28,178 nt of DNA from a virus: positions 1-28,178 of the IMG/VR virus record IMGVR_UViG_3300017720_000048. One strand, given 5' to 3'. The translations under genes and the position numbers were made by a program. Positions 1 through 28,178 of this stretch are shown here, one piece after another. Each line of letters starts with the position of its first letter. Position 1 is the stretch's first letter. The notes beneath the pieces were generated by a model. That model saw only the letters and a program-made list of their open reading frames with translations, ran no database searches and was not told the origin of the DNA.

Positions 1-123
1 CACTGAAAGACTTTACTATAATTCTTCTGCGTCTTATGATGCTAATAATTCTGGTAATTTATTTTACAATGCTGCTGTTCCCTTACAAGGTGTATTATTT
101 TCAGAATTAAAATATGCTATCAG
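1..123. repeat. Terminal direct repeat, left copy (circular-assembly overlap)
   Basis: The first 123 bases are identical to bases 28056-28178. The repeat lies inside one continuous gene, and the reading frame is kept when the two copies are merged. This fits the redundant end of a circular or circularly permuted genome better than a functional terminal repeat. The unit length is then 28,055 bp. Confidence 0.95.
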
Positions 124-1729: not shown

Positions 1730-1872
1730 TAAAACTAATTTTACAGATGCTAGAATTTGCTAATGGTGAAACTGAAGAGATTCAAAGGGCACAAGGTAAA
1801 TATGCACACCCAGAAAGTTTTAAAGGTGCATGGCGTAAATTTAAAAAAGAGTTAAAATGGCAGAAAAAGTAA
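1726..1872 (+). CDS. Small basic protein between tail protein and tape measure (48 aa)
   Basis: The start ATG overlaps the preceding stop as ATGA and the 3' end overlaps the tape-measure start by 16 bases, so the ORF closes an otherwise empty gap exactly. The product begins MIKLILQMLEFANGETEEI and ends in a Lys/Trp-rich tail (WRKFKKELKWQKK). It has no recognisable domain. The tight coupling on both sides suggests a translated gene, perhaps a tail-assembly accessory factor or only a translational coupler. The function is unknown. Confidence 0.6.
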   Translation: MIKLILQMLEFANGETEEIQRAQGKYAHPESFKGAWRKFKKELKWQKK

Positions 1873-3605
1873 ACCTAGAATTAGAGGTAGAAGCAGCGAA
1901 AGCGATTAAGGAGGTTGAAGATTTAAGAAAAGAATTCAAAGAACTTAATGAGTTAGTTGAGAAATCAAACGCTATAAATGAGCAAGGTTTTGATGCATTA
2001 AAAAAGACTGGTGAATCATCTGCTAAAGGTATTAAGGCTATTGGCTCAAGTATTAAGGCAGCTGGTATAGGTGTGTTTTTAATCGCACTGCAAACTATGC
2101 AAGATTTATTCATGCAGAATCAAAAAGTGGTGGATATAGTGAACACCGCTTTTGAATCTTTAGCCTTAGTATTTAATGATGTGTTTGGGTTGCTTACTGG
2201 TGGTGTTGATTCAATTAAAAAGGTAGGTGAAGCTTTTGATAAATTCTTTGGAAAACCCATTGAAACAGCTGTAGCATCTTTTCAAAAATTTGGTAGTGCA
2301 TTTAGTAAGATATTTGGAGGTGATTTTAGTGGTGCTTTAGATGATGCAAAAGAAGGCTTTAGCGGTTTGGGTGATGCCATTAGCCAGACTGGTGATGGCT
2401 TTGTTGAAGCTGCTACTGATGCAGCTGAATATGTTGTGAATGTAAAAAATGCAGCGGTTGAAAACGTTGAATTAGCAAAAAGTGCTGAACTAGCTGAAGC
2501 TAAAAATGTTGGATTGCTAGAAAAGTTTGATAGGGCAGCTGAGAAGCAAAGACAAATCAGAGATGAAGAAAGAAACAGTATTGAAAAACGAATAGAAGCA
2601 AATGAAAAACTAGGCGAAATATTAGAAGAGCAAAATAAAACGATGCTTGAAAATGCCAACATTGCGTTAAAAAGTGCTCAAGCTAACTTCGACCGCAATG
2701 CATCAATTGAAAACGAGGTGGCTTTGATACAAGCACGAAATGAAGTTTTAGCAGTTGAAGCTACTGTGGAGGGTTTCAGGTCAGAACAAAAAGCAAATGA
2801 TTTGGCTTTAGATAAAGAGCGAATAGAATTAAAAAATACTGAAAATGAAGCTGACACAAACCGAAGATTAGATCAGCAAAAGTTTGAAGCCGAGCAAGAG
2901 TTAACTGAAACTCAAAGACTACAGAGATTGATTGAAATTAATCAACAAGAAAAATTGATCCAAGAAGAAAGGTTACAAGGTATAATTAATGAAGCTAATT
3001 TAGGAACTCAAGCAAGGATAGATGCCGAAGGTGCATTAAAAGATTTTACACAAGCTAACAATCAAGAGCTTATTACGCTGCAAAAACAACAAGCTGCAAA
3101 TATATTAGATGTTGAAAAGAAAGCATTAGCTGACAAACAGAAGTTAGAAGCCCAAAAAATTCAAGCCACATTAGTGAGTTTGAGTGCGGTTGCTACATTA
3201 GTTGACCAAGATTCAAAAGCTGGAAAAGCTATAGCTGTTGCTCAAGGTTTAATTAACACATATCTTGGAGTTACACAAGCATTAGCTTCATCACCGCCAC
3301 CATTTAACTTTATTGCTGCTGCTGCTACAGCTGCTGCTGGTTTTAAAGCTGTTGCAGACATAAACAGAACAACACTACCCTCACCAGAAGGGGGCAATTC
3401 AAACGTGTCAGCAACTGGAAGCTTTTCAGCTAGTGCTCCAGCAGAAGCAACACCCCCATCTTTTAATATTGTTGGGGCTACAGCGACCAACCAAATTGCT
3501 AATCTTTTATCGAATCAAGAACCAATTAAAGCTTTTGTTGTGAGTCAAGATGTAACCACAGCCCAAAGCCTAGAGCGGAATATTGTAGAAGGTTCAAGCA
3601 TATAA
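1857..3605 (+). CDS. Short tail tape measure protein
   Basis: The 582-aa product begins with a charged helical segment (residues 1-45) and has an apolar helix around residues 65-90 (AAGIGVFLIALQTMQDLF). A Phe/Gly-rich region spans about 100-170, and a long Glu/Gln/Lys/Arg-rich coiled coil spans about 205-440. Another apolar segment, AAAATAAAGFKAVADI, falls near 485-500, followed by a Ser/Ala/Pro-rich tail. Long helix plus apolar segments is the usual make-up of tape measures, which set tail length and enter the host envelope. At about 0.15 nm per residue the tail would be near 90 nm (family rule, not measured). The gene follows tail structural genes and ends the first late unit. It is small for a siphophage tape measure, but it is the only candidate in the genome. 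Confidence 0.75.
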   Translation: MAEKVNLELEVEAAKAIKEVEDLRKEFKELNELVEKSNAINEQGFDALKKTGESSAKGIKAIGSSIKAAGIGVFLIALQTMQDLFMQNQKVVDIVNTAFESLALVFNDVFGLLTGGVDSIKKVGEAFDKFFGKPIETAVASFQKFGSAFSKIFGGDFSGALDDAKEGFSGLGDAISQTGDGFVEAATDAAEYVVNVKNAAVENVELAKSAELAEAKNVGLLEKFDRAAEKQRQIRDEERNSIEKRIEANEKLGEILEEQNKTMLENANIALKSAQANFDRNASIENEVALIQARNEVLAVEATVEGFRSEQKANDLALDKERIELKNTENEADTNRRLDQQKFEAEQELTETQRLQRLIEINQQEKLIQEERLQGIINEANLGTQARIDAEGALKDFTQANNQELITLQKQQAANILDVEKKALADKQKLEAQKIQATLVSLSAVATLVDQDSKAGKAIAVAQGLINTYLGVTQALASSPPPFNFIAAAATAAAGFKAVADINRTTLPSPEGGNSNVSATGSFSASAPAEATPPSFNIVGATATNQIANLLSNQEPIKAFVVSQDVTTAQSLERNIVEGSSI

Positions 3606-3638
3606 TGCAAAATTGACTTTCAAATTCGTTATTAGTTT
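3605..3638 (+). promoter_or_regulatory. Candidate phage late promoter (CAAA box + CGTTA, copy 1)
   Basis: ATGCAAAATT begins at 3605 and CGTTA at 3627, 22 bases later. The A of the next ATG (3639) is 12 bases after the C of CGTTA. The same arrangement occurs before 5195, 7922 and 24570, all first genes of late units. It sits in the 33-base gap after the tape-measure gene. Confidence 0.6.
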
Positions 3639-4214
3639 ATGAAAATCATTGAACTAATAATAGATGAAGGTGAAGATAATGGCGTGAATGCCATCTCACT
3701 TGTAAAAAATCCAGCAATAGAATCAGATTTTTTGGCTTTAAAATCAGATGAAGTTTTACTTAAAACTATCAATGATGATAAAAGGCTTTTGGTTGGTGCT
3801 CTTTTGATACCCAACAAGCCTATCATGCGGAAAAATGAAGAAGGTAATTATTACATATACTTCTCAAAAGATACCGTAGAAAAAGCTTCACAAAAATTTC
3901 TCATGAATAACAATCAACACAATGCCACCCTTGAGCATAAAATTCCGCTAACTGGGATGACATTGGTTGAAAGCTGGATTATTGAAAACAAAAAGCAAGA
4001 TAAATCTGCATATTATGGGCTTGATGTGCCAGTGGGCACTTGGATGGGCACGATGAAAGTGCAAAATGAAGATACTTGGCAAGAAGTGAAGTCTGGGAAA
4101 ATCAAAGGCTTTAGTATCGAGGGGTATTTTGCAGATAAAATAGAAGCTTCAAAATATGATCCAGAAAAAGAAGCTGAAAATTTATTGAATGAAATCAAAA
4201 ATATACTTGCTTAA
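3639..4214 (+). CDS. XkdF-like prohead serine protease
   Basis: The 191-aa protein matches the layout I know for XkdF-type head maturation proteases: an N-terminal segment with NAISLVKNPAIESDF, a central region with two His residues (H94 and H100 in NQHNATLEHKIPL), the block VGTWMGTMKVQNEDTWQEVK, and KSGKIKGFSIEGYF with a candidate nucleophile S159. These enzymes trim scaffold and capsid proteins during prohead maturation. It is the first gene of a late unit with the CGTTA element in front, and the scaffold and capsid genes follow about 1-3 kb downstream. The assignment rests on motif recognition; which His pairs with S159 is inferred. Confidence 0.8.
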   Translation: MKIIELIIDEGEDNGVNAISLVKNPAIESDFLALKSDEVLLKTINDDKRLLVGALLIPNKPIMRKNEEGNYYIYFSKDTVEKASQKFLMNNNQHNATLEHKIPLTGMTLVESWIIENKKQDKSAYYGLDVPVGTWMGTMKVQNEDTWQEVKSGKIKGFSIEGYFADKIEASKYDPEKEAENLLNEIKNILA

Positions 4215-5160: not shown

Positions 5161-5194
5161 ATGCAAATTTTTTTACATAAACCGTTAATTAATT
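5161..5194 (+). promoter_or_regulatory. Candidate phage late promoter (copy 2)
   Basis: ATGCAAATTT begins at 5161 and CGTTA at 5183, again 22 bases apart, with the next ATG (5195) 12 bases after the C of CGTTA. The gap after the preceding gene is 63 bases and otherwise AT-rich. Confidence 0.6.
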
Positions 5195-5881
5195 ATGAAA
5201 TCTACTGAATTATTAAATAAAGTAAAGGAGATTTTGAATATTCCAGTAACATTGGAAGAATCAAAAGAGGTAAAGTTAGAAGTTATGACTTTACAAAATG
5301 GCACAGTAGTAGAAGCTGAACGTTTTGAAAAAGGTGCTGAAATATTTATCAAAAGCGATGATGAAAAAATAGCATTGCCAGTAGGTGAATATGTTATGAG
5401 TGATGGAAAGCTTTTGGTGGTTAAAGAGGAGGGTGTAATTGATGACTTTAGAGTTGTTGGTGATGATGTACCAGCCAAAGAAATTACTGAAGATTTAAAG
5501 TATCATGATAAAGATAAAAAGATGAAAAAAGATGATGAAAAAGAGATGAAGGAACACGAGGAGGATGAGAAGAAAAAGATGGCAGATCATATAAATGTCG
5601 ACAAAGAAGGCAATATGATTGTCAAAATTGATGACTGGAAAGCTATGGAAGAAAGAATAGCCAATTTAGAAGTCGCTATCAACAAATTAAAAGGTGAAAA
5701 AATGGAAGCTTCTAAAACAATTGAAGAATTAGAAGAAAAATTATCAGCTGAACCAGCTGTGGAAGCCATTACTCATTCACCAGAAAATAATACAGAGGTT
5801 AAAGAACAACCAAAGTATGGTAGAAACAGACCCATGACAATGTCTGAAAAAGTTTTAGAAAGAATTTCAAATATTAATTAA
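5195..5881 (+). CDS. Probable capsid scaffolding protein
   Basis: The 228-aa protein has an N-terminal Val/Glu-rich beta-type region (residues 25-95). A highly charged Lys/Glu/Asp/His stretch covers about 100-135, a coiled coil about 145-185 (WKAMEERIANLEVAINKLKG), and the tail ends RPMTMSEKVLERISNI. An acidic, helical, low-complexity protein between the prohead protease and the major capsid gene is the usual profile of a scaffold that is cut away during maturation. The call rests on position and composition; no catalytic motif is seen. Confidence 0.6.
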   Translation: MKSTELLNKVKEILNIPVTLEESKEVKLEVMTLQNGTVVEAERFEKGAEIFIKSDDEKIALPVGEYVMSDGKLLVVKEEGVIDDFRVVGDDVPAKEITEDLKYHDKDKKMKKDDEKEMKEHEEDEKKKMADHINVDKEGNMIVKIDDWKAMEERIANLEVAINKLKGEKMEASKTIEELEEKLSAEPAVEAITHSPENNTEVKEQPKYGRNRPMTMSEKVLERISNIN

Positions 5882-5884
5882 ATT

Positions 5885-6304
5885 ATGGCAACTTATATAG
5901 ATACTTCAAATGATATTGTATTTAATCAAGTAAGACAAAATACAATCACAACATCAGTGAGCATTGCTGCTGGTGATGCTGGAATTGACCAGAATATTGC
6001 AACTGATGCTTTGGTTATTACTTTACCACAAATTCACAGTGGTAATATTGGTCTTAGTTATCTCTTTAGAAATACTGGGGCAGATGGTAATAATATCATC
6101 ACTTTAAGCCCACATTCTACTGATGGTTTCAATGGTTCTATTGCGAATGCAGCTGCTGACTCAGTGGCTTCTGGAGTAGTGGATAAAGATTGGGTAAACA
6201 CTAAAGCAACTGCTAACAAAGGTGACTATGTTATTATTAGAGCGGTAGCCCTTACACAGTGGTACATTGTTGGAGGGGTTGGAATATGGGCTTCAGAAGC
6301 TTAA
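5885..6304 (+). CDS. Probable head decoration protein
   Basis: The 139-aa product is short, rich in Ala, Gly, Thr, Asn and Ile, and predicted mostly beta-stranded (SLSYLFRNTGADGNNIITL-type segments, then DYVIIRAVALTQWYIVGG). It has no membrane segment or enzyme motif. It starts 3 bases after the scaffold-like gene and lies 26 bases before the major capsid gene, the common place for a capsid-stabilising decoration protein. A fibre-tip or other virion role is possible. Confidence 0.55.
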   Translation: MATYIDTSNDIVFNQVRQNTITTSVSIAAGDAGIDQNIATDALVITLPQIHSGNIGLSYLFRNTGADGNNIITLSPHSTDGFNGSIANAAADSVASGVVDKDWVNTKATANKGDYVIIRAVALTQWYIVGGVGIWASEA

Positions 6305-6330
6305 TTATTAATTTTTAAAATATAGAAAAA

Positions 6331-7260
6331 ATGAGAAACGTTGAATTAGCAACAACAACAAATATAACCACAAGTTACAGCGGTCAAGCGTCATCTGATT
6401 ATATAGCCGCGGCACTTTTTTCAGCGACTACTATTGATGATGGTGGGATCACTGTTAAAAGTAATGTAGCTTACAAAGAGGTATTACAAAGAGGGGCTAC
6501 TGGCTCAATTGTATCAGATGCAACTTGTGACTTTTCACCAAGTTCTACTCTTACATTAGATGAGAAAATTCTCGAACCAAAAGAACTTCAAGTAAATTTG
6601 CAAGTTTGTAAGCAAGATTTTTACAAAGATTGGCAGTCGGCTTCTATGGGATATGGTTTGAATCAAACTTTACCAAGTAAATTTTCAGATTTCTTGGTTG
6701 CTCACTGTGCTCAGAAGGTAGCACAAGCAACTGAAACCAGTATCTGGAGCGGTGCAGCTGGTGGTGCTGGTGATTTTCAAGGCTTAGTCGCAAACATGAC
6801 AGCTGATGCAACAGTGACTGACATTGCTGCTATTGGTGGCGGTTTAGCTGCTGGTAATATCATTGCTGAAATGTCTAAGGTAGTGGCAGCACTACCCAGT
6901 GCTATCTATGGGCAAGAAGATACTTATATTTACGTTAATAGCAAAACAGCTAGACTTTATATTCAAGCATTAGGTGCTCTTGGAAATGGTGTTCAAAACA
7001 TGGGTTCAATGTGGTACAATAACGGAACACTTACAATTGATGGAGTGAATGTTTTTGTAACCCCGGGATTAGCCGATGATACAATGGTTGGAGCACAAGC
7101 CAGCAATCTATTTTTTGGAACCGGAATTTTAAGTGATAATCAAGAAGTATCGGTTTTAGATATGCAACCAATCGATGGAAGTCGCAATGTAAGAATAATC
7201 ATGCGATATACGGCTGGGATTCAGGTGGGCTTCGGTTCTGATTGTGTGCTGTATAGTTAA
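6331..7260 (+). CDS. Major capsid protein (HK97-type, inferred)
   Basis: The 309-aa product contains features typical of HK97-fold capsid proteins. An N-terminal arm precedes a beta segment with YKEVLQRGATGSIV. A helical spine follows (residues about 110-140, LPSKFSDFLVAHCAQKVAQA), then an Ala/Gly-rich A-domain and a C-terminal block ending IMRYTAGIQVGFGSDCVLY. The placement protease, scaffold, decoration, this gene, tail tube matches a standard capsid cassette. The length is at the small end for the family. No sequence search was possible; the call relies on order and overall pattern. Confidence 0.8.
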   Translation: MRNVELATTTNITTSYSGQASSDYIAAALFSATTIDDGGITVKSNVAYKEVLQRGATGSIVSDATCDFSPSSTLTLDEKILEPKELQVNLQVCKQDFYKDWQSASMGYGLNQTLPSKFSDFLVAHCAQKVAQATETSIWSGAAGGAGDFQGLVANMTADATVTDIAAIGGGLAAGNIIAEMSKVVAALPSAIYGQEDTYIYVNSKTARLYIQALGALGNGVQNMGSMWYNNGTLTIDGVNVFVTPGLADDTMVGAQASNLFFGTGILSDNQEVSVLDMQPIDGSRNVRIIMRYTAGIQVGFGSDCVLYS

Positions 7261-7284
7261 TTGTTAACTTAAAATTATAAAGAT

Positions 7285-7839
7285 ATGCCATGTGCTGTAA
7301 GCAAAGGGCGTAGCCTTCCATGTAAGGCTGCGTTCGGCGGAATAAAGACCGCCTATTTTTTCGATCTGGGAGGGCTGGGAACAGTTACTTACGGAACTGG
7401 TGATGATGCTGGTAAAATTACCGCTATCTCTGGTTCACCAACTGTTTACCCTTATGAGGTTAAAAATACTTCAAGCCTAGAAACCACGATAAATAGCTCT
7501 CGCGAAACTGGCACTACATTTTATGAGCAAACGTTATCATTAACATTTACTTATTTAGACGTGCAAACGCAAGAGCAAATTAAACTACTCGCTTGGGGTA
7601 GAAATTCTGTCGCTGTATTAGATTATTATGATAACATAGTGATTTGTGGATTAGAACACGGTGTTGAGATGACTGCTGGAACTATTGGAACTGGCACACA
7701 GCCAGGAGATTTGAGCGGTTTCACCTTGACTTTTACTGGTCAAGAAGAGGATCCGGCCACATTTATCACTAGCTCTTTAATAGCTGCAAGTGCAACTCAA
7801 GGAGCACAAATTGATCCAACTTCAGCGGTAACGCCTTAG
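7285..7839 (+). CDS. Probable major tail tube protein
   Basis: The 184-aa product starts MPCAVSKGRSLPCKAAFGGI and continues with beta-rich segments (NSSRETGTTFYEQTLSLTFT, DLSGFTLTFTGQEEDPATF). I recognise this pattern from Bacteroidetes prophages, where it is usually left hypothetical. Length, beta content and a repeated small-Gly/Thr composition agree with a tail tube subunit. It is the last gene of the capsid unit and is followed 24 bases later by a strong terminator, which fits an abundantly expressed end gene. The alternative is another minor virion protein. Confidence 0.6.
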   Translation: MPCAVSKGRSLPCKAAFGGIKTAYFFDLGGLGTVTYGTGDDAGKITAISGSPTVYPYEVKNTSSLETTINSSRETGTTFYEQTLSLTFTYLDVQTQEQIKLLAWGRNSVAVLDYYDNIVICGLEHGVEMTAGTIGTGTQPGDLSGFTLTFTGQEEDPATFITSSLIAASATQGAQIDPTSAVTP

Positions 7840-7862
7840 TTTTGTTTTTTTAGTTAGTTTAG

Positions 7863-7889
7863 AAGCCCTTTTATTAGGGCTTTTTTTTT
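7863..7889 (+). terminator. Rho-independent terminator after the capsid/tail-tube unit
   Basis: AAGCCCT (7863-7869) pairs with AGGGCTT (7876-7882) across a 6-base loop, and an uninterrupted T run reaches 7889. The hairpin separates the capsid unit from the portal unit. Confidence 0.9.
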
Positions 7890-7921
7890 ACAAAATCATT
7901 AAAAAATAACGTTATCTAATT
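7888..7921 (+). promoter_or_regulatory. Candidate phage late promoter (copy 3)
   Basis: CAAAAT at 7891 lies in the same register as in copies 1 and 2. CGTTA starts at 7910, followed by TCTAATT and the ATG at 7922, 12 bases from C to A. It stands directly behind a terminator, as expected for a promoter that restarts transcription. Confidence 0.6.
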
Positions 7922-8284
7922 ATGATAATTGCTACAACGAGCACTGGGGCACAAAATTTTAAAGTAATTCCACGAGATTATTCATTAACTAGCTTTACAT
8001 TGAAGATAAGAGATGATCAAACAAACACAACGGTATCTTATTCAATTACTGGAGCTAGTGTTAGCACGAATTACGTTATATTTAGCAACACATTTAGCCC
8101 CGTTTTGGTTGATAATCATTATTATGATTTTACGCTTGTTAGTGCTGCCAATTTAATTATCTATAAAGACAGATTATTTTGCACTGATCAAACGATAAAT
8201 CAAGCTAATAATAATTATTACGATTTGAACGATGGTATTTATACAGAATATGATGGATTTGACAATGAATATATTGTAAGATGA
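7922..8284 (+). CDS. Small beta-rich virion-associated protein of unknown function
   Basis: The 120-aa product has repeated short beta-type segments and ends IYKDRLFCTDQTINQANNNY followed by a Tyr/Asp/Asn-rich tail (YTEYDGFDNEYIVR). I recognise related proteins from Bacteroidetes phages, normally near portal or fibre genes, without a known role. Its stop overlaps the portal start by four bases (ATGA), so expression is coupled. It could be a small fibre, head or connector component. Confidence 0.6.
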   Translation: MIIATTSTGAQNFKVIPRDYSLTSFTLKIRDDQTNTTVSYSITGASVSTNYVIFSNTFSPVLVDNHYYDFTLVSAANLIIYKDRLFCTDQTINQANNNYYDLNDGIYTEYDGFDNEYIVR

Positions 8285-10587
8285 GAAAAAAAAATAAAAT
8301 AAACATTCAAGCCACCGTTCCAAAAGCCAAAAAATCTATGAATGTAGGCTTTGTAAATCTAAGTTCTTTCGTTTTACCAGAGATTAAAGAAGAAACTGGC
8401 AAGTTTAAGTTTGTAAAGTTTGGTGAAAACAACGATTATTTTCAAGTTTTAATTGATAGGTATGTTGGAAGCCCAACAAATCACGCGATTATAAACAGTA
8501 TCTCACAGCAAATATATGGTAAAGGCTTAAACGCTACAGATGCAAACAAAAAGCCCGAAGAATATGCCATGATGATCCGAATGTTTTCAAAAGAATGCGT
8601 TCGAAGATTATGCACAGACTTAAAAATGCTTGGGCAATGTTCCGCTCAAATAATATATTCTAAAAATAGAACTAAAATAGTCAAGGTTGAACACTTACCA
8701 GTGGAAACTTTAAGAGCAGAAAAGGCTGATGAGAATGGCAAGATACCAGCTTATTATTATCATAAGAATTGGGCGGATTTAAAACAAGGTGAACAACCTA
8801 GAAGAATTCCAGCTTTTGGAATGAGTCAAGAACCTATTGAAATATTTTATATCAAACCTTATAAACCAAGTTTTTTTTATTATTCACCCCCAGATTATCA
8901 AGGCTGCGTTCAATATTGTATGCTTGAAGAAGAGATTAGCAATTATTTAATCAATTATGTACAGCAAGGGCTGTCGCCTTCTATGCTTTTAAACTTCAAT
9001 AACGGTATTCCAAATCAAGAAGAACGAGAATTAATTGAAAGTCGCATTGCACAGAAATTCACTGGCTCAAATAATGCTGGAAAATTTGTTTTATCATTCA
9101 ATGATTCTAAAGAAACAGCTGCTGATTTGATTAGTGTGCCAGTTAATGACGCCCACTTACAGTTTCAAACGTTATCTGATGAAGCTTCAAAGAAAATAAT
9201 GGTGGGGCATAGGGTAACAAGCCCAATGTTGATGGGTATTAAAGACCAATCTGGATTAGGTAATAACGCTGATGAAATAAAGACAGCTAGTTTGCTGTTT
9301 GATAATGTAGTTATTAGAACATTTCAAGAATTATTAATTAGTTCGTTTGACCAAATACTTGCTTTTAATGACATAACATTAAATCTATATTTCACTACTC
9401 TACAACCTTTAGAATTTACAGAAGTTGATCCAACGATCCAAGATTCTGAAGAAATCGAAGAAAAGACTGGGGTTGAAGTAGATGAAAATAAATCAGAAAC
9501 ACCAGTTGAAGAAGATGTAACTGATGAAGAAATAGAAAAAGTGGATGCTTCTTATAATGGAGCACAGATTTCAAGTGCCATTGCTATTATTGAGAAAGTT
9601 AAAGAAGGTATTTTAACAAATGAACAAGCTAAAACTTTCTTAATTCAATTTTTACAACTTCCAGAAAGTGTTGCTAATTCATTTTTTGATGAAGAAAATG
9701 TGAATTTATCAAGAGTTCGAGCATTTTTAGAATCAAAACGAGAAAAAACATCTGTTGAAAACTTAAAAAAAATAGATGGTCAAACAGTTTATGAAACTAA
9801 AGAAGAAGCTGAAGAGGTAGCTAAAACAATTGGCTGCAAAGGCTCACATATTCATGAGGAAGATGGCAAAGAGTGGCATATGCCTTGTGAATCTCACGAA
9901 GATTTAATTAGGGGTATTGATAGAGATTCTGATGACTTACAAGAATTCATAGATTTAGGTGAAGATGAAGAAGCTTTACTTGAAAATTATGATTTAATTG
10001 ATGTTTCGGAAGTTGATTATGAAGCAGAGGAAGCATTCGATGAGAAAATTAAAGAGCTAAATGATAAACACAAACCAACCAACCTAGTAAAGACTGGTGA
10101 TGCTTATGGCAGAAATAGAAAATCAGAGCAAGATGGCACATCAAAGCAAGATGAATCATTGAGGTTTTTGGTAAGGTATCAATATGCACCATTGAAAAAG
10201 CAAAAAGATACTAGAAAATTTTGCAACGCAATGGTAAACGCTAAAAAAATATATCGAAAAGAAGATATTTTGAAAATGAGTGACAAAAGAGTTAACCCAG
10301 GGTTTGGGGTTAAAGGTGCTGCTACTTATTCAATATGGTTATATAAAGGCGGAGCGAGATGTTTTCACAAATGGTTCAGAAAAACTTATGTAATAAATGA
10401 AGATAGAAATATTAACAAGAAACCATTGAGGAAAACTGATGAAATAACATCTACAAAAGCGAAATCAATGGGTTTCAAAGCTCCAATTAATGACCAACTT
10501 GTGCCAGTCGCACCACGAGATATGAAATTTGAGGGTTACACAAAAGCATACTGGGATAAAATGGGGTTTAAAAATACAGCAAAGTAA
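8281..10587 (+). CDS. Portal protein fused to C-terminal Cys/His and minor-head-type domains
   Basis: The 768-aa product is much longer than typical portals of about 400-500 aa. Residues about 40-375 look like a phage portal (SPTNHAIINSISQQIYGKGL; HRVTSPMLMGIKDQSGLGNN ADEI; the helical stem that follows). An acidic linker covers about 375-425. A helical segment at 427-470 (SSAIAIIEKVKEGILTNEQA) resembles C-terminal helices of portals. Residues 506-540 hold C519, H523, H525, H533, C536 and H539, a plausible metal site. Residues about 627-705 (FLVRYQYAPL...FCNAMVNAKKIYRKEDILKM...GGARCFHKWFRKTYV) match a domain I know from Bacteroidetes phage head proteins. The product would form the dodecameric head vertex; the added domains may replace a separate minor head protein. 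Confidence 0.75.
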   Translation: MRKKNKINIQATVPKAKKSMNVGFVNLSSFVLPEIKEETGKFKFVKFGENNDYFQVLIDRYVGSPTNHAIINSISQQIYGKGLNATDANKKPEEYAMMIRMFSKECVRRLCTDLKMLGQCSAQIIYSKNRTKIVKVEHLPVETLRAEKADENGKIPAYYYHKNWADLKQGEQPRRIPAFGMSQEPIEIFYIKPYKPSFFYYSPPDYQGCVQYCMLEEEISNYLINYVQQGLSPSMLLNFNNGIPNQEERELIESRIAQKFTGSNNAGKFVLSFNDSKETAADLISVPVNDAHLQFQTLSDEASKKIMVGHRVTSPMLMGIKDQSGLGNNADEIKTASLLFDNVVIRTFQELLISSFDQILAFNDITLNLYFTTLQPLEFTEVDPTIQDSEEIEEKTGVEVDENKSETPVEEDVTDEEIEKVDASYNGAQISSAIAIIEKVKEGILTNEQAKTFLIQFLQLPESVANSFFDEENVNLSRVRAFLESKREKTSVENLKKIDGQTVYETKEEAEEVAKTIGCKGSHIHEEDGKEWHMPCESHEDLIRGIDRDSDDLQEFIDLGEDEEALLENYDLIDVSEVDYEAEEAFDEKIKELNDKHKPTNLVKTGDAYGRNRKSEQDGTSKQDESLRFLVRYQYAPLKKQKDTRKFCNAMVNAKKIYRKEDILKMSDKRVNPGFGVKGAATYSIWLYKGGARCFHKWFRKTYVINEDRNINKKPLRKTDEITSTKAKSMGFKAPINDQLVPVAPRDMKFEGYTKAYWDKMGFKNTAK

Positions 10588-16197: not shown

Positions 16198-16231
16198 TTT
16201 TGATTTATTAAATATTTGTTTAATATATTTG
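16198..16231 (+). promoter_or_regulatory. Host-type early promoter with overlapping inverted repeat
   Basis: TTTTG (16198-16202) and TATATTTG (16224-16231) are 21 bp apart, fitting the Bacteroidetes TTTG/TAnnTTTG promoter. TATTAAA (16206-16212) and TTTAATA (16219-16225) form a 7-bp inverted repeat with a 6-bp spacer that overlaps the -7 box, a possible operator. Bases 16204-16231 match 18825-18852 at 25 of 28 positions. Confidence 0.7.
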
Positions 16232-17261: not shown

Positions 17262-18083
17262 ATGACACACAAAGAAGCTCTTAAGCTCTGTTCAATTAAT
17301 CCAGATGCTAAAATTATTTACCCCCCAATAGCCCTTTCACTAGGTTCAAAGGTATTAGATACCAGACAAGGCAAGAAAGTTGTAGATATACCGATCGCGA
17401 CCTATTCAAATATTAGTGCAATTGGCTCACCGCCCAAAACTAAAAAGACATTTTTAACATCACTTCTAGTAAGTGCTTATTTACATCATAACCAGTTTTC
17501 TGGTAAGATAAAAACTCACCGCAAAGATGAGCTGGTTTTGCATTTCGATACTGAGCAAGGTGAATACCATGCTTCTAGGGTTTTTAATAGGGTGATAGAT
17601 ATGGCAAACTTAGATTTTAAAGAAGCTTACAAATGTTACGCTTTGAGGGTATTATCGCCCAAGCAAAGAATTGATTTTATTGAAAAAGAAATAGCATATA
17701 ATAAAAATGTGGGCTTGGTTATTATAGATGGTATTACTGACCTGGTAGCTGACATTAATAATATCGAAGAAAGCAATTTGGCAGTTCATAAATTAATGGA
17801 ATGGAGCGGAAAATATAAATGCCATATTATGACAGTGATACACACCAACTATAATTCCGACAAAATAACTGGTCATTTAGGTTCAATTCTACTCAAGAAG
17901 CTAGAAACATTAATCTCATTAGAACAAATTAATGATGAAATCAAAGTAAATTGCAAATTAAGCCGAGGTTTTTCATTTGAATCATTTAACTTTAAGATTA
18001 ATTCATTTGGTTACCCCGAAATTTGCGATAATTTTTATGACCCCCTTAGAAGCGATATTCAAGAAACACAAAAATTGGGTTAA
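17262..18083 (+). CDS. RecA-fold ATPase / replicative helicase-like protein (AAA_25 type)
   Basis: The 273-aa protein has a Walker A loop GSPPKTKKT (residues 55-63), an acidic catalytic position in HFDTEQG (about 94-100), Walker B LVIIDGITD (152-160) and a sensor-like TVIHTN (191-196). This is the layout of RepA/DnaB-type hexameric helicases of plasmids and phages. It probably loads or unwinds DNA at the phage origin. No primase domain is fused. The start follows an intergenic terminator by 18 bases; its 3' end overlaps the sigma-like gene. Confidence 0.8.
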   Translation: MTHKEALKLCSINPDAKIIYPPIALSLGSKVLDTRQGKKVVDIPIATYSNISAIGSPPKTKKTFLTSLLVSAYLHHNQFSGKIKTHRKDELVLHFDTEQGEYHASRVFNRVIDMANLDFKEAYKCYALRVLSPKQRIDFIEKEIAYNKNVGLVIIDGITDLVADINNIEESNLAVHKLMEWSGKYKCHIMTVIHTNYNSDKITGHLGSILLKKLETLISLEQINDEIKVNCKLSRGFSFESFNFKINSFGYPEICDNFYDPLRSDIQETQKLG

Positions 18084-18513
18084 TGTAGTTAAAAGTTTTG
18101 GGTGTGATGAGTATTTAGCCGATGATGTTGTTCAAGAAATGTACATAAAAGTTCAACAAAGGTTAAACAAAGGGCTAGATATCAGCTATGGTGATGACGA
18201 TTATAATGAATTTTATATTTTCAAGGTGCTCAGAAGCTTATTTTATGACCTAAAGCGAAAGCAATCAAAGGTAAAGCTTTATGATTTGCATGAAAACACT
18301 AAAACAACTGAAGAAGAAGTGTGCTATGAGTGCTTTGAAGCCAAAGTTGACAAAGCAAAACAAGAATTATTTTGGTATGATAGCCAAGTTTTTGACATTA
18401 TTGATGGGGGTTACTCCATTGCAAGGCTTTCACGAGAAAGCGACATAAGTTATTACAGCCTTTATAACACTTATAGGAAGGTAAAAAAGATTTTGACAGA
18501 TGAAATTGGGTGA
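18037..18513 (+). CDS. Sigma-70-like RNA polymerase factor
   Basis: The start ATG at 18037 (MTPLEAIFKKHKNWVNVVKS) is preferred; the ATG at 17977 lies deeper inside the helicase gene. The 158-aa product has a region-2-like block (residues about 10-75: SFGCDEYLADDVVQEMYIKV and FKVLRSLFYDLKRKQSKV), an acidic linker, and a C-terminal helix-turn-helix-like block (FDIIDGGYSIARLSRESDIS YYSLYNTY). It resembles small sigma-like factors I know from Bacteroidetes phages. It is a natural candidate for recognising the CGTTA late promoters found at four late units. It could also be a DNA-binding regulator without sigma activity. Confidence 0.7.
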   Translation: MTPLEAIFKKHKNWVNVVKSFGCDEYLADDVVQEMYIKVQQRLNKGLDISYGDDDYNEFYIFKVLRSLFYDLKRKQSKVKLYDLHENTKTTEEEVCYECFEAKVDKAKQELFWYDSQVFDIIDGGYSIARLSRESDISYYSLYNTYRKVKKILTDEIG

Positions 18514-21269: not shown

Positions 21270-21872
21270 TTGATTACTAACGAAGATAATATGAATTTAA
21301 TGGCTAGGTATGAAGATAACTATTTTGACTTAGCTATTGTTGATCCGCCCTATGGTATTGGAAATTGGGTTCAGCAAACAGGAAATAAAAGAGGAAAAAA
21401 GGTTGATTGGAATGATAACATACCTAATAAGCAATATTTTAAAGAATTATATAGAGTAAGTAAAGAGCAAATTATTTGGGGTGCTAACTATTATAATTGT
21501 TTTAACAATAAAGGAGGTGCAATAATTTGGGATAAAAAAAACCCAAACCCAAAATTTAGTAAATGTGAAATTGCAAGTTATAGCAGATTAAAAAAAGTTG
21601 ATTATATATGTATTAAACATTTTGGATTTATATCTGATGATAATTATAATATTCACCCGTGTCAAAAACCAGTAAAACTTTATGAATGGCTTTTAATGAA
21701 TTACGCAAAAGAAGGTGATAAAATACTGGATACCCATTTAGGAAGTGGATCAATAGCTATAGCTTGTCATAATTTAGGGTTTGATTTAACAGCTTGTGAA
21801 CTTGACACAGAATATTATGAAAAAGCAATGAAAAGAATTAGCGATCATAAGAAACAAATAAGAATGTTTTAA
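21270..21872 (+). CDS. DPPY-type DNA methyltransferase (N6-adenine or N4-cytosine)
   Basis: There is no ATG before the conserved N-terminus; a TTG at 21270 gives LITNEDNMNLMARYEDNYFD, the usual start for this family, so TTG initiation is inferred (ATG 21291 would lose seven residues). The 200-aa enzyme has motif IV DPPYGIG (25-31), HPCQKPVKLYEWLL (129-142) and a motif-I-like ILDTHLGSGS (152-161), i.e. the circularly permuted beta-class order. THLGSGS replaces the usual FxGSGT. It is an orphan, perhaps protecting phage DNA from host restriction. Confidence 0.85.
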   Translation: MITNEDNMNLMARYEDNYFDLAIVDPPYGIGNWVQQTGNKRGKKVDWNDNIPNKQYFKELYRVSKEQIIWGANYYNCFNNKGGAIIWDKKNPNPKFSKCEIASYSRLKKVDYICIKHFGFISDDNYNIHPCQKPVKLYEWLLMNYAKEGDKILDTHLGSGSIAIACHNLGFDLTACELDTEYYEKAMKRISDHKKQIRMF

Positions 21873-21877
21873 TCAGT

Positions 21878-21885
21878 TATATTTG
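21878..21885 (+). promoter_or_regulatory. TATATTTG box just before terminase small subunit
   Basis: TATATTTG lies in the 17-base gap before the ATG at 21890, only four bases upstream of it. No clear -33 box is seen. If active, the transcript would begin at or next to the ATG. Confidence 0.4.
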
Positions 21886-21889
21886 AGTA

Positions 21890-22234
21890 ATGTATAAAAC
21901 AAACGACATAATCGAGAAGTCAATTGAGGTAATTAAAGAGCAAAACTTGATTTTTATAGGTGATATTTTTGCTTATACGATGTTTTCTAAAGATGCTTTT
22001 TATGATCACAAATGCCATGAAAACGAAGCGATAAAAAAGGAGCTGCAAAATAATAGGGTATTGATGAAGCAGAATATGCGAAAGAAATGGTATAAATCAG
22101 ATAATGCTGCCCTCCAGATATCTCTTATGAAATTGATTGGTGATGAATCAGAGGTTCAAAGGCTAAACAATTCTAAGCACGAAATAAAGCACGATAATAA
22201 AGACAATAATATCAACGTTAAAATCATCAAGTGA
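21890..22234 (+). CDS. terS: Terminase small subunit
   Basis: The 114-aa helical protein resembles small terminase subunits of Bacteroidetes phages (LIFIGDIFAYTMFSKDAFYD H, then MRKKWYKSDNAALQISLMKL IG, and a Lys/Asn-rich tail). It has an N-terminal helix-turn-helix-type segment for recognising phage DNA. It overlaps the large subunit as GTGA, the standard pair order. Confidence 0.8.
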   Translation: MYKTNDIIEKSIEVIKEQNLIFIGDIFAYTMFSKDAFYDHKCHENEAIKKELQNNRVLMKQNMRKKWYKSDNAALQISLMKLIGDESEVQRLNNSKHEIKHDNKDNNINVKIIK

Positions 22235-23838: not shown

Positions 23839-23870
23839 TTTTTGTTTGATAAGTTGTTTGTATATATTTG
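23839..23870 (+). promoter_or_regulatory. Host-type promoter before the 23899 unit
   Basis: TTTTTG (23839-23844) and TATATTTG (23863-23870) are 18 bp apart; the ATG is 28 bases beyond the box. It is one of the best matches to the Bacteroidetes consensus in the window. Confidence 0.65.
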
Positions 23871-24258: not shown

Positions 24259-24515
24259 ATGAAGTAAAAAGAATTAAATACTTTGGCAATGCTCAAATGG
24301 TATTTTCCATTTTATCAGATTGGCAGAAGCAAAAGCCCAATAAAAAACTAGAAGAATGTTTGGTGGCTCTTTACAATATGAATAAATACACCATTAATTT
24401 ACAAGATGACAGAGAGCTTTTGTTTGATCAGCTGAATCATGTCAAAAATGAGCGGAGTGAATGGGCAAAAAAAGCCTTAGATTATGAGAGACAACTGGAA
24501 TTATCCAAACTTTGA
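24252..24515 (+). CDS. Unknown helical protein (87 aa)
   Basis: It overlaps the previous stop by seven bases (ATGCTAG). The product is helical throughout: MLDEVKRIKYFGNAQMVFSI, NKKLEECLVALYNMNKYTIN, and a coiled C-terminus RSEWAKKALDYERQLELSKL. Its stop codon is part of the terminator region. The function is unknown; co-expression with the 23899 product suggests a common job. Confidence 0.7.
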   Translation: MLDEVKRIKYFGNAQMVFSILSDWQKQKPNKKLEECLVALYNMNKYTINLQDDRELLFDQLNHVKNERSEWAKKALDYERQLELSKL

Positions 24516-24538
24516 AGCGGTTTTACACCGCTTTTTTT
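24515..24538 (+). terminator. Rho-independent terminator before the late region
   Basis: AAGCGGT (24515-24521) pairs with ACCGCTT (24527-24533) over a 5-base loop and is followed by T residues to 24538. It insulates the early/accessory unit from the first late unit. Confidence 0.9.
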
Positions 24539-24569
24539 ATAAATTAAACTTTATAAACGTTATATAAAT
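24536..24569 (+). promoter_or_regulatory. Candidate phage late promoter (copy 4)
   Basis: CGTTA starts at 24558 and the ATG at 24570, 12 bases from C to A as in the other copies. The upstream box is weaker (ATAAATT at 24539, aligned with CAAAATT). It stands directly behind a terminator at the head of the tail unit. Confidence 0.55.
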
Positions 24570-25223
24570 ATGAAAGCTTCAATAACAATACCAACAGATT
24601 TATCTGAAATCACACTTTCTGACTATCAAAAATTTTTAGCAGTATCTGAATTGTACCCAGATAATCATAATTTTCTAGCTCAAAAAATAATAGAGATATT
24701 TTGCCATGTCAAGCCAGAAAATGTAAGGCTAATAAAAGCGGTTGATGCTGATTCTATTGTCAGAAAGATAACCAAAGTGCTTGAATCAAAGCCAAAAGAT
24801 TTGGTAGAAAACTTCAAGCTGAACGGTGTTGAATATTGGTTTCACCCCGATCTTGATGACATGAGCTTCGGAGAGTATATTGATGCTGACAGCTATTTAG
24901 CTGATATAAAAGAAATTCATGCAAGTATGAACGTATTTTACCGGCCCATAAAAAACAAAGTGGGTAACAAATACACACTTGAAAGCTACGATCCTGGAAA
25001 AAAAGATAGGCTTTTGAATATGCCTATGGATGCGGTCATATCTAGCATGGAGTTTTTTTTTCTTTTAAGCAATCAGTTATCGAACGTTATGACAACTTAT
25101 TTCAGCGATCCGAAGAATCAACAAGCCTTGAAGGCGGATTCAGCGCTCGATGGGGATGGTATGGATCAATTTTCTTACTTGCTCGAGAAAACATTAACGA
25201 AATTGAAAATACAGTTGCCTTAA
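24570..25223 (+). CDS. Tail assembly chaperone, unshifted form (gpG-like)
   Basis: The 217-aa product is helical and acidic (MKASITIPTDLSEITLSDYQ KFL...; NGVEYWFHPDLDDMSFGEYI). I know similar proteins from Bacteroidetes phages near tail genes. After FFF at residues 162-164 the zero frame continues for 53 residues to TAA at 25223. It heads the late tail unit, upstream of tail completion genes and the tape measure. It is called a chaperone because a second frame extends it in the manner of lambda G/GT; sequence alone gives only weak family support. Confidence 0.65.
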   Translation: MKASITIPTDLSEITLSDYQKFLAVSELYPDNHNFLAQKIIEIFCHVKPENVRLIKAVDADSIVRKITKVLESKPKDLVENFKLNGVEYWFHPDLDDMSFGEYIDADSYLADIKEIHASMNVFYRPIKNKVGNKYTLESYDPGKKDRLLNMPMDAVISSMEFFFLLSNQLSNVMTTYFSDPKNQQALKADSALDGDGMDQFSYLLEKTLTKLKIQLP

Positions 25224-25800: not shown

Positions 25801-26363
25801 AATTTGAAGAGGTAAATATCGCATTAAATGCGTTTGGTAGATACGTCATTCAGCAGTCTAGATCAAACCTTACTAGGGGCAAAAAGAATGTCACCAAAGG
25901 CTTGTATAATAGCTTAAAATATAAAGTCTATGAAGATGACAATAACAACTTTATACTTGATTTTTTAGGGGCAGATTATCAAGATTTTGTAGATGAAGGG
26001 GTGAGGGGTAAGAATCCAAACGCACTTCCAAAAGGCTCTAAAAACTTTGGTAAACAACAAGCCCCAAACAGCCCATTTAAATTTGGCTCTGGTCGTGGCG
26101 GTTCTGGTTTAAGAAGAGCAATCAATAAATGGGTGACACAAAAGAAAGCTTTTGGTGGTCAGATAAGAGATAAGAAAGGGCGGTTTATACCTAGAAAAAC
26201 TTTGCAGTTTTTAATTACCAGAAGCATTTGGTATAGTGGTATAAAGCCAAGTATGTTTTTTACTAAGCCCTTTACTAAGGCTTTCCAACGCTTACCAGCT
26301 GAGTTATTAGAAGCGTTTAAAATAGATGTTGAAAAAGGAATATTATTAGGAATTAAAAAGTAA
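25797..26363 (+). CDS. HK97 gp10-like tail component
   Basis: The ATG at 25797 overlaps the previous stop (ATGA); a TTG six bases upstream is rejected. The 188-aa basic protein has an N-terminal helix (FGRYVIQQSRSNLTRGKKNV TKGL) and DFVDEGVRGKNPNALP, then FGSGRGGSGLRRAINKWVTQ and IWYSGIKPSMFFTKPFTKAF, a pattern I know from gp10-like proteins that close the head-tail interface. It sits among tail genes. Confidence 0.7.
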   Translation: MKFEEVNIALNAFGRYVIQQSRSNLTRGKKNVTKGLYNSLKYKVYEDDNNNFILDFLGADYQDFVDEGVRGKNPNALPKGSKNFGKQQAPNSPFKFGSGRGGSGLRRAINKWVTQKKAFGGQIRDKKGRFIPRKTLQFLITRSIWYSGIKPSMFFTKPFTKAFQRLPAELLEAFKIDVEKGILLGIKK

Positions 26364-27367
26364 TGGCAAATATATTATTAAGAAGCCCAAGATATGAAGG
26401 TATCACAGTAAGCACTGGAAAAGCATCTGTAAAATTAGAAGCTTCATTTGCTGGTTCGCTTCGTTACACGTTAGTTAAAAATGCAACCGCTGGATCAGTG
26501 GTAACTTTTGAAATAGCTGAATTGGCTTTGGATTATTTATCTATTACTTATGCTGGTTCTTATAGTGCTCAGACATTAGCTATAAGTTTAACGTTTAAAG
26601 AATACACTGGGCAAAATGCTACTGGAACTGAGTCAACAAACAGCACAATTACTCACACTGGGTTTGATGGTTATGGCTTTTATATGCAAGGGGCAAATCC
26701 TACTATTGCAAACACCCAATGGCTAATCCCACAAAAAGAAAGTGATAATACTTATGAAGTATTTTTACCAGATAACACTGCTGGAGTAGTGCCATACATG
26801 AGTGATGGAGGTGCTTTTAGTTATGTCAGCATTGGTGCAAGTGATACTTCTATTGCTGCAAATAGTGGCTCTGTTCCTGGAAGTAATAACCCAGCTTTAA
26901 CCATCACCAGAAGAGGGTGTATTTCTTACAGATACACACCCAAAAAGCTCACCTTTGTTAATAGATTTGGAGCACTTCAAGACTTGTATTTTTACTTAAA
27001 AGAGGTGCTAACAACTAACACCGCACGAGAATCATTTAACTCAAATACCATATCTTTAAATGGTAGCAGCACAACTTACAGCGTAAATGCTCCGACCAAA
27101 AAGTTATTTGATAGAACAGCAAGTCAAAAAGTTAGCTTATCTAGTGGTTATTACCCAGAGTTTGCTACACAATATTTTGAAGATTTGCTTTTATCAAATC
27201 AAATATTCATGACACAACCAGATCCTCTAGATATATCATCAACTCAAATTGTGCCAGTCATAGCTACCACTTCTGAAATAATTAGAAAAACATCACTAAA
27301 TGACAAGCTAATAAATTATGTTATTGACTTTGATTTTGCTTTTGATTACATTAATAATGTTCGATAA
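26363..27367 (+). CDS. Tail/baseplate-type structural protein (334 aa)
   Basis: It starts within the previous stop (TAATG). The protein is beta-rich (SPRYEGITVSTGKASVKLEA, AISLTFKEYTGQNATG), with a Ser/Thr/Gly/Asn-rich middle and the block KKLTFVNRFGALQDLYFYLK, which I recognise from Bacteroidetes phage tail genes. It is followed with TAATG overlap by the 805-aa protein. A distal tail or baseplate position is inferred from order. Confidence 0.65.
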   Translation: MANILLRSPRYEGITVSTGKASVKLEASFAGSLRYTLVKNATAGSVVTFEIAELALDYLSITYAGSYSAQTLAISLTFKEYTGQNATGTESTNSTITHTGFDGYGFYMQGANPTIANTQWLIPQKESDNTYEVFLPDNTAGVVPYMSDGGAFSYVSIGASDTSIAANSGSVPGSNNPALTITRRGCISYRYTPKKLTFVNRFGALQDLYFYLKEVLTTNTARESFNSNTISLNGSSTTYSVNAPTKKLFDRTASQKVSLSSGYYPEFATQYFEDLLLSNQIFMTQPDPLDISSTQIVPVIATTSEIIRKTSLNDKLINYVIDFDFAFDYINNVR

Positions 27368-28178
27368 TGCAGAAGTTCCAGATATACATTGGTGATGATC
27401 GGCTTGATTTATTCAAAGATGAATCTATAACAGTAACTCAGTCTATTCAAAACGTTAAACAAATAGATAAGATTTTCACTGAATTTAGCCAGACTTTCTC
27501 AGTTCCAGCATCACCCACCAACAACAAAATTTTCAAGCATTACTATCAGTATGATATTGTTAATGGATATGATGCAAGGGTTAAATCAGCTGGAAGAATT
27601 GAGTTTAATTTTCTTACTTGGCGGAATGGGTTCATAGCCCTCAATGGAACTAGGTTAAAAAACAACAAGCCTTATTCTTATAAAATTACTTTTTTCGGTG
27701 AAACTGTAAATCTGAAAGACATTTTAGCAGATGATCAATTATCAGTTTTAACCCCCTTAAATACTTTCAATTTAGATTATGATGCTACTACAGTAGAAAA
27801 TAAATTAATTACTACCATAGATAATGCGACTGCTAAAAAGAATGGAGCAATTACAGCATCTACAGATTTGGTAGTAGATGGTAATTCTGGAACTATTGCG
27901 GTGGGAGATGTGGTAAATTGTGACGGTGTTAATGGATTAGTAACCATCGTTACAGTAACAGATCAAAATAATTTAGTGATGTCAAGTGCTCAAACCATAG
28001 CGGATGATGTTAATATAATATTTTCAAAAAGCATTTGTGCTCCATTAATCACACACACTGAAAGACTTTACTATAATTCTTCTGCGTCTTATGATGCTAA
28101 TAATTCTGGTAATTTATTTTACAATGCTGCTGTTCCCTTACAAGGTGTATTATTTTCAGAATTAAAATATGCTATCAG
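27367..28178 (+). CDS. Large tail/baseplate-type protein, 5' part (continues at base 1)
   Basis: This is the N-terminal part of the 805-aa protein whose rest is at 124-1729 (bases 28056-28178 equal 1-123). It begins MQKFQIYIGDDRLDLFKDES and contains FSQTFSVPASPTNNKIFKHY YQYDIVNGYDARVKSAGRIE, which I recognise as a conserved N-terminal block of tail proteins in Bacteroidetes phages, then PYSYKITFFGETVNLKDILA DDQLSVL. The frame has no stop to the window end. It starts inside the previous stop (TAATG). Confidence 0.85.
   Translation, partial: MQKFQIYIGDDRLDLFKDESITVTQSIQNVKQIDKIFTEFSQTFSVPASPTNNKIFKHYYQYDIVNGYDARVKSAGRIEFNFLTWRNGFIALNGTRLKNNKPYSYKITFFGETVNLKDILADDQLSVLTPLNTFNLDYDATTVENKLITTIDNATAKKNGAITASTDLVVDGNSGTIAVGDVVNCDGVNGLVTIVTVTDQNNLVMSSAQTIADDVNIIFSKSICAPLITHTERLYYNSSASYDANNSGNLFYNAAVPLQGVLFSELKYAI
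28056..28178. repeat. Terminal direct repeat, right copy
   Basis: Identical to bases 1-123. See the left copy. Confidence 0.95.

Follow-up and report, generated by a model that had tools for sequence, protein, structure and literature searches.

Putative late promoters abutting the start codon and their probable reader, a phage-encoded ECF-type sigma factor, in a family of Bacteroidota phages

Phages phiEco32 and 7-11 are podophages of enterobacteria and are larger than, and in host unlike, the ~28-36 kb phages of Bacteroidota considered here. To our knowledge, transcription control of Bacteroidota phages has been little described, and literature searches, the coverage of which did not extend to the P12024 genome paper, returned no account of the promoters and the sigma factor reported below in such phages. 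The closest described system is that of phiEco32 and Salmonella phage 7-11, which encode sigma factors with their own middle/late promoters (PMC4331800). In the available part of that account, these lytic phages have a small sigma factor of their own, a few well-conserved specific promoters before structural genes and host promoters for the early genes; the promoter consensus is TAATGTATA / TGATGTTATA, and fusion of promoters to start codons is not described in that part (PMC4331800). The family to which the window belongs (the window being the whole stretch of viral DNA analyzed, 28,178 bases) likewise combines a phage-encoded sigma factor with predicted phage-specific promoters before structural genes. 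Its promoters, in contrast, do not follow the TAATGTATA / TGATGT consensus but have the form TnCAAAA-N14-CGTTATATA, and those of the window are fused to the ATG. Since phage sigma factors with their own promoters are already known from phiEco32 and 7-11, the new part would be this fusion, together with the diversification of sigma/promoter pairs.

Another point of comparison is that of bacterial ECF promoters. In the Mtb sigma-H structure, the -10 element is read as G-11 T-10 T-9 in a promoter of the form GGAACA/GTT, N92 contacts base pair -11, and R84 is the melting residue (PMC6411747). The ECF promoters of F. psychrophilum are represented by motif SM6 with its CGT -10 box, and leaderless mRNAs account for only 5.5% of the mapped mRNAs of this bacterium (PMC9723704). 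The phage family shares with such promoters a two-domain sigma factor (regions 2 + 4), a CGT(T) -10 box and a rigid -35/-10 spacer (PMC6411747, PMC9723704). It differs in its -35 box, CAAAA instead of GGAAC, in the position of the window's -10 boxes exactly 12 bases from the ATG, and in that it would serve a phage late programme.

The first 123 bases of the window (1-123) exactly repeat the last 123 (28056-28178), and the record therefore probably represents a complete phage genome, circular or circularly permuted, of ~28.06 kb. Its late genes form four units, which are listed here with the early region and its signals:

24570 to 3605, across the junction via the 123-base end overlap: tail unit (tail, tape measure)
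24570..25223, + strand: lead gene of the tail unit (phrog_32199, 1.2e-19); the unit continues through 27367
1857-3605: tape measure gene (phrog_3336, 1.2e-9), reached across the end overlap from the tail unit
From 3639 onward: protease unit
3639..4214, + strand: prohead protease (XkdF/S78-like; Pfam PF14550, 1.1e-17), lead gene of its late unit
5195 to 7839: capsid unit (scaffold-like, capsid and tail candidates; functions by position)
5195..5881, + strand: scaffold-like protein, lead gene of the capsid unit (name inferred from position; weak phrog_24921 match)
6331-7260: capsid candidate, 3' of the scaffold-like gene
7861..7884, + strand: intrinsic terminator that closes the capsid unit
7922 to ~15.6 kb: portal/fibre/lysis unit (portal, fibre, endolysin)
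7922..8284, + strand: small protein with no function assigned, lead gene of the portal unit by its position before the portal
8281-10587: portal (phrog_33693, 3e-103)
~16.2-24.5 kb: early region (recombination, exonuclease, methyltransferase and terminase genes)
16199..16231, + strand: host-type promoter of the Bacteroidota sigma-A class, TTTG ... TATATTTG, where the early region starts
18037..18513, + strand: putative ECF-type sigma factor of 158 aa (residues 8-78 form region 2, and the C-terminal part a region 4-type helix-turn-helix)
23841..23870, + strand: host-type promoter, TTTG ... TATATTTG, ahead of gene 23899
24514..24534, + strand: intrinsic terminator upstream of late promoter 4

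Bacteroidota sigma-A promoters carry TTTG at -33 and TAnnTTTG at -7. Such promoters are present in the early region of the window, and the TAnnTTTG box is absent just upstream of all four late starts. From these host-type promoters and from relatives that infect Persicivirga/Nonlabens, a Bacteroidota host is inferred; a portal search of bacterial genomes returned no relative and therefore gave no direct host assignment, and a megablast search of the window against named phages found no match. A scan of this AT-rich window for sigma-70-type promoters was uninformative (72 and 81 matches as compared to 54 and 67 expected). The portal protein contains a stretch matching Pfam DUF3721 (2.7e-9), and the length of the portal differs among relatives, from ~600 to 770 aa.

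Each late unit is preceded by one copy of the predicted promoter:

3605..3635, + strand: predicted late promoter 1, before the prohead protease; -35 ATGCAAA (3605-3611), -10 CGTTATTAG (3627-3635)
5161..5191, + strand: predicted late promoter 2, before the scaffold-like/capsid unit; -35 ATGCAAA (5161-5167), -10 CGTTAATTA (5183-5191)
7888..7918, + strand: predicted late promoter 3, before the portal/fibre/lysis unit; -35 TTACAAA (7888-7894), -10 CGTTATCTA (7910-7918)
24536..24566, + strand: predicted late promoter 4, before the tail unit; weak -35 TTTATAA (24536-24542), -10 CGTTATATA (24558-24566)

The initial annotation of this DNA had described four such elements, in which CGTTA is followed by seven bases and an ATG, and all four were confirmed: CGTTA starts at 3627, 5183, 7910 and 24558 and the ATG at 3639, 5195, 7922 and 24570, with 12 bases from C to A in every copy and the CAAA box 31 bases upstream of the ATG. 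It had credited only copies 1 and 2 with a full CAAA box 22 bases upstream of CGTTA. This is correct for ATGCAAA at 3605 and 5161 and for the weak TTTATAA at 24536, but copy 3 has a full CAAA as well (TTACAAA, 7888), which brings the count to three of four. The proposed restriction to the lead genes of late units held, with 4 of ~46 genes carrying the element and each of these first in its unit, as did the position of late promoters 3 and 4 directly after the terminators at 7861-7884 and 24514-24534. CGTTA occurs 21 times on the + strand of the window, and the probability of four exact placements at ~46 gene starts by chance is ~2e-8 (binomial). The pattern CGTTAN7ATG was observed six times in the window, compared to a mean of 0.6 in dinucleotide shuffles. 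The statement that internal CGTTA copies never have an ATG at this distance is not entirely correct: the copy at 26469 (+) does, although it lies within gene 26363-27367 in another frame and lacks a CAAA box. One further match, also without a CAAA box, lies on the minus strand at 7897, and both extra matches look like chance.

The element is also found beyond the window. A portal query identified 80 relatives, and in 21 related phage genomes the bipartite TnCAAAA-N14-CGTTATATA stands ahead of the orthologues of the four lead genes (protease, scaffold, pre-portal and tail-unit). The proteins of these genomes are ~30-67% identical to those of the window, and the sequence of the inter-box spacer has changed. 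The initial proposal of a phage-specific late promoter set is thus supported by the presence of the element before orthologous late genes in these 21 genomes and in the cultured phage P12024S, on the late side and, among the IMG/VR matches listed, nearly confined to the family. The consensus was derived from 78 elements (65 distinct) of 22 genomes including the window, some of which are close relatives, so that they represent fewer than 78 independent cases. The distance from C to the ATG, which had been proposed to be fixed at 12 bases, is so in all four window copies but varies in relatives, being 12 in 61 of the 78 elements, 13-16 in 14 and 22-24 in three. The gap between CAAA and CGTTA with an ATG nearby was 15 in 52 cases and 14 in 14 cases among the portal-bearing relatives, other gaps being mostly represented by five cases or fewer. 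The rigid part is the CAAA-to-CGTTA spacing and not the distance to the ATG. A conserved -35 box and a CGT-type -10 box at rigid spacing (gap 14-15) are as expected of ECF promoters.

With a weight matrix from whose training the window and its near twin had been excluded, the four sites of the window ranked 1, 2, 4 and 6 among all positions on both strands, late promoter 3 (7888) being first and late promoter 4 (24536) second. Over the 22 genomes, 129 matches exceeded the threshold, compared to 46 in reversed sequence; the strong ones stand mostly before members of the four lead-gene families, and antisense matches are weak. The element was found 55 times on the late and three times on the early side of the genomes, whereas the host-type promoters numbered 18 on the early and nine on the late side. 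One matrix match, CGTTATACATCAAAACTTTGG in the ATPase-like gene upstream of the sigma gene, looks by inspection like conserved coding sequence and was rejected as a promoter.

An exact scan of 2.9 million IMG/VR contigs with the pattern CAAAA-N14-CGTTATATA-N3-ATG matched at least 120 stretches. Among the matches listed, 79 contigs with the exact element were new, and all of these except one (78) fall into this phage family; of the 94 elements, 89 stand directly before a protease (45), pre-portal (28), scaffold (15) or tail-unit (1) gene. The exact element is thus nearly confined to this family among the matches listed. When the spacer was set to 17 instead of 14 as a control, the whole IMG/VR collection yielded six matches.

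Cultured members of the same wider family are the Nonlabens (Persicivirga) phages P12024S and P12024L, which have a homologous portal, protease and sigma gene (gp33) but differ from the window in a sigma identity of only ~28%, a -10 box CGTTAATA and a -35 box AAAACAAA. P12024S (NC_018271) has seven AAAACAAA ... CGTTA elements, located before gp01, gp05, gp08, gp35, gp41, gp44 and gp45; the upstream box is weaker at gp01, and the ATG is 12 bases from C in six of the seven and 11 in one. The same elements are present in two metagenomic relatives of this phage. By synteny and annotation, the sigma homologue in P12024S is gp33, for which the annotation goes no further than a hypothetical protein with sigma-70 region 2. 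A tblastn search of the window's sigma factor against named phages gave no match at 0.01, though gp33 is a homologue.

The identification of the 18037-18513 protein as an ECF-type sigma factor is supported by profile and predicted fold. The window protein itself scores just below the cut-off for Pfam Sigma70_r2 (1.1e-4; 22.4 bits, cut-off 24) and well below that for NCBIfam sigma70-ECF (22.8 bits, cut-off 42.9). Among 23 homologues, sigma70-ECF was matched in 18 (best 4.7e-10) and Sig70_bacteroi1 in 10 (best 6.5e-13), and a profile search matched solved ECF sigma factors including SigE, SigL and SigH. In the AlphaFold2 model (pLDDT 84), a floppy linker of low confidence at 86-92 separates two helical domains, in agreement with the make-up of ECF (group 4) sigma factors, which consist only of regions 2 and 4 with a flexible linker between them. 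The top 25 PDB neighbours retrieved by Foldseek are all ECF-type sigma factors, among them region 4 on -35 DNA (2h27, TM 0.75). Near-complete relatives encode an ECF-type sigma factor of 158-180 aa. Of 14 long records selected through the portal gene, 13 have a homologue in conserved gene order, the exception being a 23 kb fragment. Conversely, the late module is present in the 16 long records selected through the sigma gene, and at least 15 of these have CGTTA elements before late genes; in this set, the informative direction is the late module given sigma and not the presence of sigma. In relative G023 a host-type promoter lies directly before the sigma gene, as expected if the sigma factor is made early. 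The start of the sigma gene overlaps the 3' end of the ATPase-like gene that precedes it (17262-18083; overlap 18037-18083), an arrangement that suggests translational coupling.

The bipartite architecture, the late location and the family-wide sigma gene are established at the level of sequence, and the four elements are almost certainly promoters that would switch on the late, particle-building genes. They are probably read by the small phage-encoded sigma factor. According to the proposed mechanism, the host RNA polymerase with its own sigma-A would first transcribe the early region from the TTTG/TAnnTTTG promoters, and the early products would include the two-domain ECF-type sigma factor. 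This protein would then direct the host core polymerase to TnCAAAA (-35, region 4) and CGTTATATA (-10, region 2), 14 bases apart. The CGTT of the element matches the ECF -10 box C-12 G-11 T-10 T-9; with CGTT at -12 to -9, transcription would start at, or within 1-2 bases of, the A of the ATG. This numbering predicts that late mRNAs probably begin at the start codon and that the lead genes of the late units would have leaderless mRNAs as their templates for translation. The strong preference for 12 bases fits leaderless mRNAs, and since leaders of 1-12 nt are implied in some relatives, strict leaderlessness would not be obligatory. One feature that counts against the reading by a phage sigma factor is the -35 box, since CAAAA is unlike the usual GGAAC of ECF promoters. 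We assign a probability of about 0.8 to the whole explanation, namely phage-specific late promoters read by a phage ECF-type sigma factor with a start at or near the ATG.

The same data bear on other explanations. A host ECF sigma factor could read the late promoters, with the phage sigma-like protein doing something else; flavobacterial hosts possess several such sigma factors as well as a -10 motif of the CGT type (PMC9723704). This is unlikely, given that the phage sigma gene is syntenic and kept through the family, that differences in the -10 box among the phage clades parallel those in the phage sigma, and that the exact element is nearly absent, among the matches listed, from viral contigs outside the family. 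A conserved bipartite element upstream of late units would also fit an operator or activator site for a phage late activator that works with host sigma-A. We regard this as very unlikely: the host -7 box is lacking just upstream of the four starts, the elements agree with ECF promoters in their spacing and in CGTT, and the conserved candidate for a regulator is a sigma factor.

The location of the element right at the start codon could point to a Bacteroidota-type ribosome-recruiting sequence, consisting of CGTTA and the AT-rich stretch, without promoter function; the available part of one study indicates that Bacteroidota lack Shine-Dalgarno sites and that initiation is tuned by other upstream sequence (PMC6847099). 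However, a signal of this kind would hardly be limited to 4 of ~46 genes, all first in their units and two of them directly after terminators, nor tied at a constant distance to a CAAA box that begins 31 bases before the ATG is reached, and the variable ATG distance, up to 24 in relatives, also argues against a ribosome site, so that this reading is slightly less probable still. The pentamer is short and the genome AT-rich, which would favour chance or shared ancestry of unselected sequence. The odds of this are practically negligible in view of the binomial estimate for the window and of the persistence of the element among phages with strongly diverged proteins and spacers, and it is refuted by the conservation in relatives, the IMG/VR scan and the spacing control.

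We consider it somewhat better than an even bet that the phage sigma reading extends to a large Bacteroidota phage family with its own ECF sigma factor, promoters welded to the start codon, leaderless late lead genes and distinct, possibly orthogonal sigma/-10 pairs (CGTTA, GGTTA and AT-rich). A gene annotated as hypothetical and an unannotated promoter would then explain the late switch in the whole family, including the cultured P12024S, and the proposal is hence directly testable. If 5' ends fall on the AUG, this would be a virus that uses leaderless messages for late proteins in a phylum without Shine-Dalgarno sites. If true, the family would also offer compact phage sigma/promoter pairs for expression tools in Bacteroidota, and the sigma/-10 pairs of sister clades a set of natural transcription systems that are possibly orthogonal.

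The sister clades have a different -10 box, GGTTA or an AT-rich sequence, and the sigma factor has changed with it. The freshwater-type genomes G006-G013 were found by inspection to keep AAAACAA with an AT-rich -10 box in the same register. In another clade, each genome has at least two copies of AACAC-N14-GGTTAACnTATTATG with the ATG at 12. In the sigma and portal trees, the CGTTA genomes lie on one side of a single branch (96/88; 100/100); there is therefore essentially one transition, and the co-change of sigma and motif does not represent many independent events. The position aligned with sigma-H N92 (D71) is D or N in all 23 CGTTA-class sigma factors and Q, T or R in the eight others, and that aligned with the melting residue R84 (K63, among the differing region 2 residues) is K/R in the CGTTA class as compared to I/F/V in the others. 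A residue code for the -10 box, pairing D71 with G-11, looks clean for the CGTTA and AT-rich clades but is blurred by the GGTTA clade, which keeps G-11 although D71 is replaced by T or Q. The correspondence between sigma residues and -10 bases is suggestive only.

A further -10 variant occurs in the relative L421 (G033), where TATTATATA replaces CGTTATATA at 2463, 10013 and 10804, with an upstream box AACACTTTT in two copies; no sigma gene was found in this 16.9 kb fragment. In the single contig G052 (L428), the pre-portal/portal stretch with a GGTTA promoter is present twice on the minus strand (~12.3-14.1 kb and 15.3-17.1 kb), either as a real duplication or as an assembly artefact. Ahead of gene 21890 of the window (21853-21890), AACAAAT...AGTTATATTTGAGTAATG can be read as a weak phage-type or host-type promoter, and CGTTAAAATCATCAAGTG (22216) precedes the GTG start of the terminase gene by 15 bases. 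The relatives G002, G003, G020 and G023 have a clear CGTTATATA element ~30 bases or more before an ORF near the terminase unit, which is perhaps a fifth late promoter. Extra CAAAA-N14-CGTTATATA elements of two relatives, at L274:4963 (+) and L299:2303 (-), stand directly before the gene for a ParB-like protein, a name given from sequence reading only.
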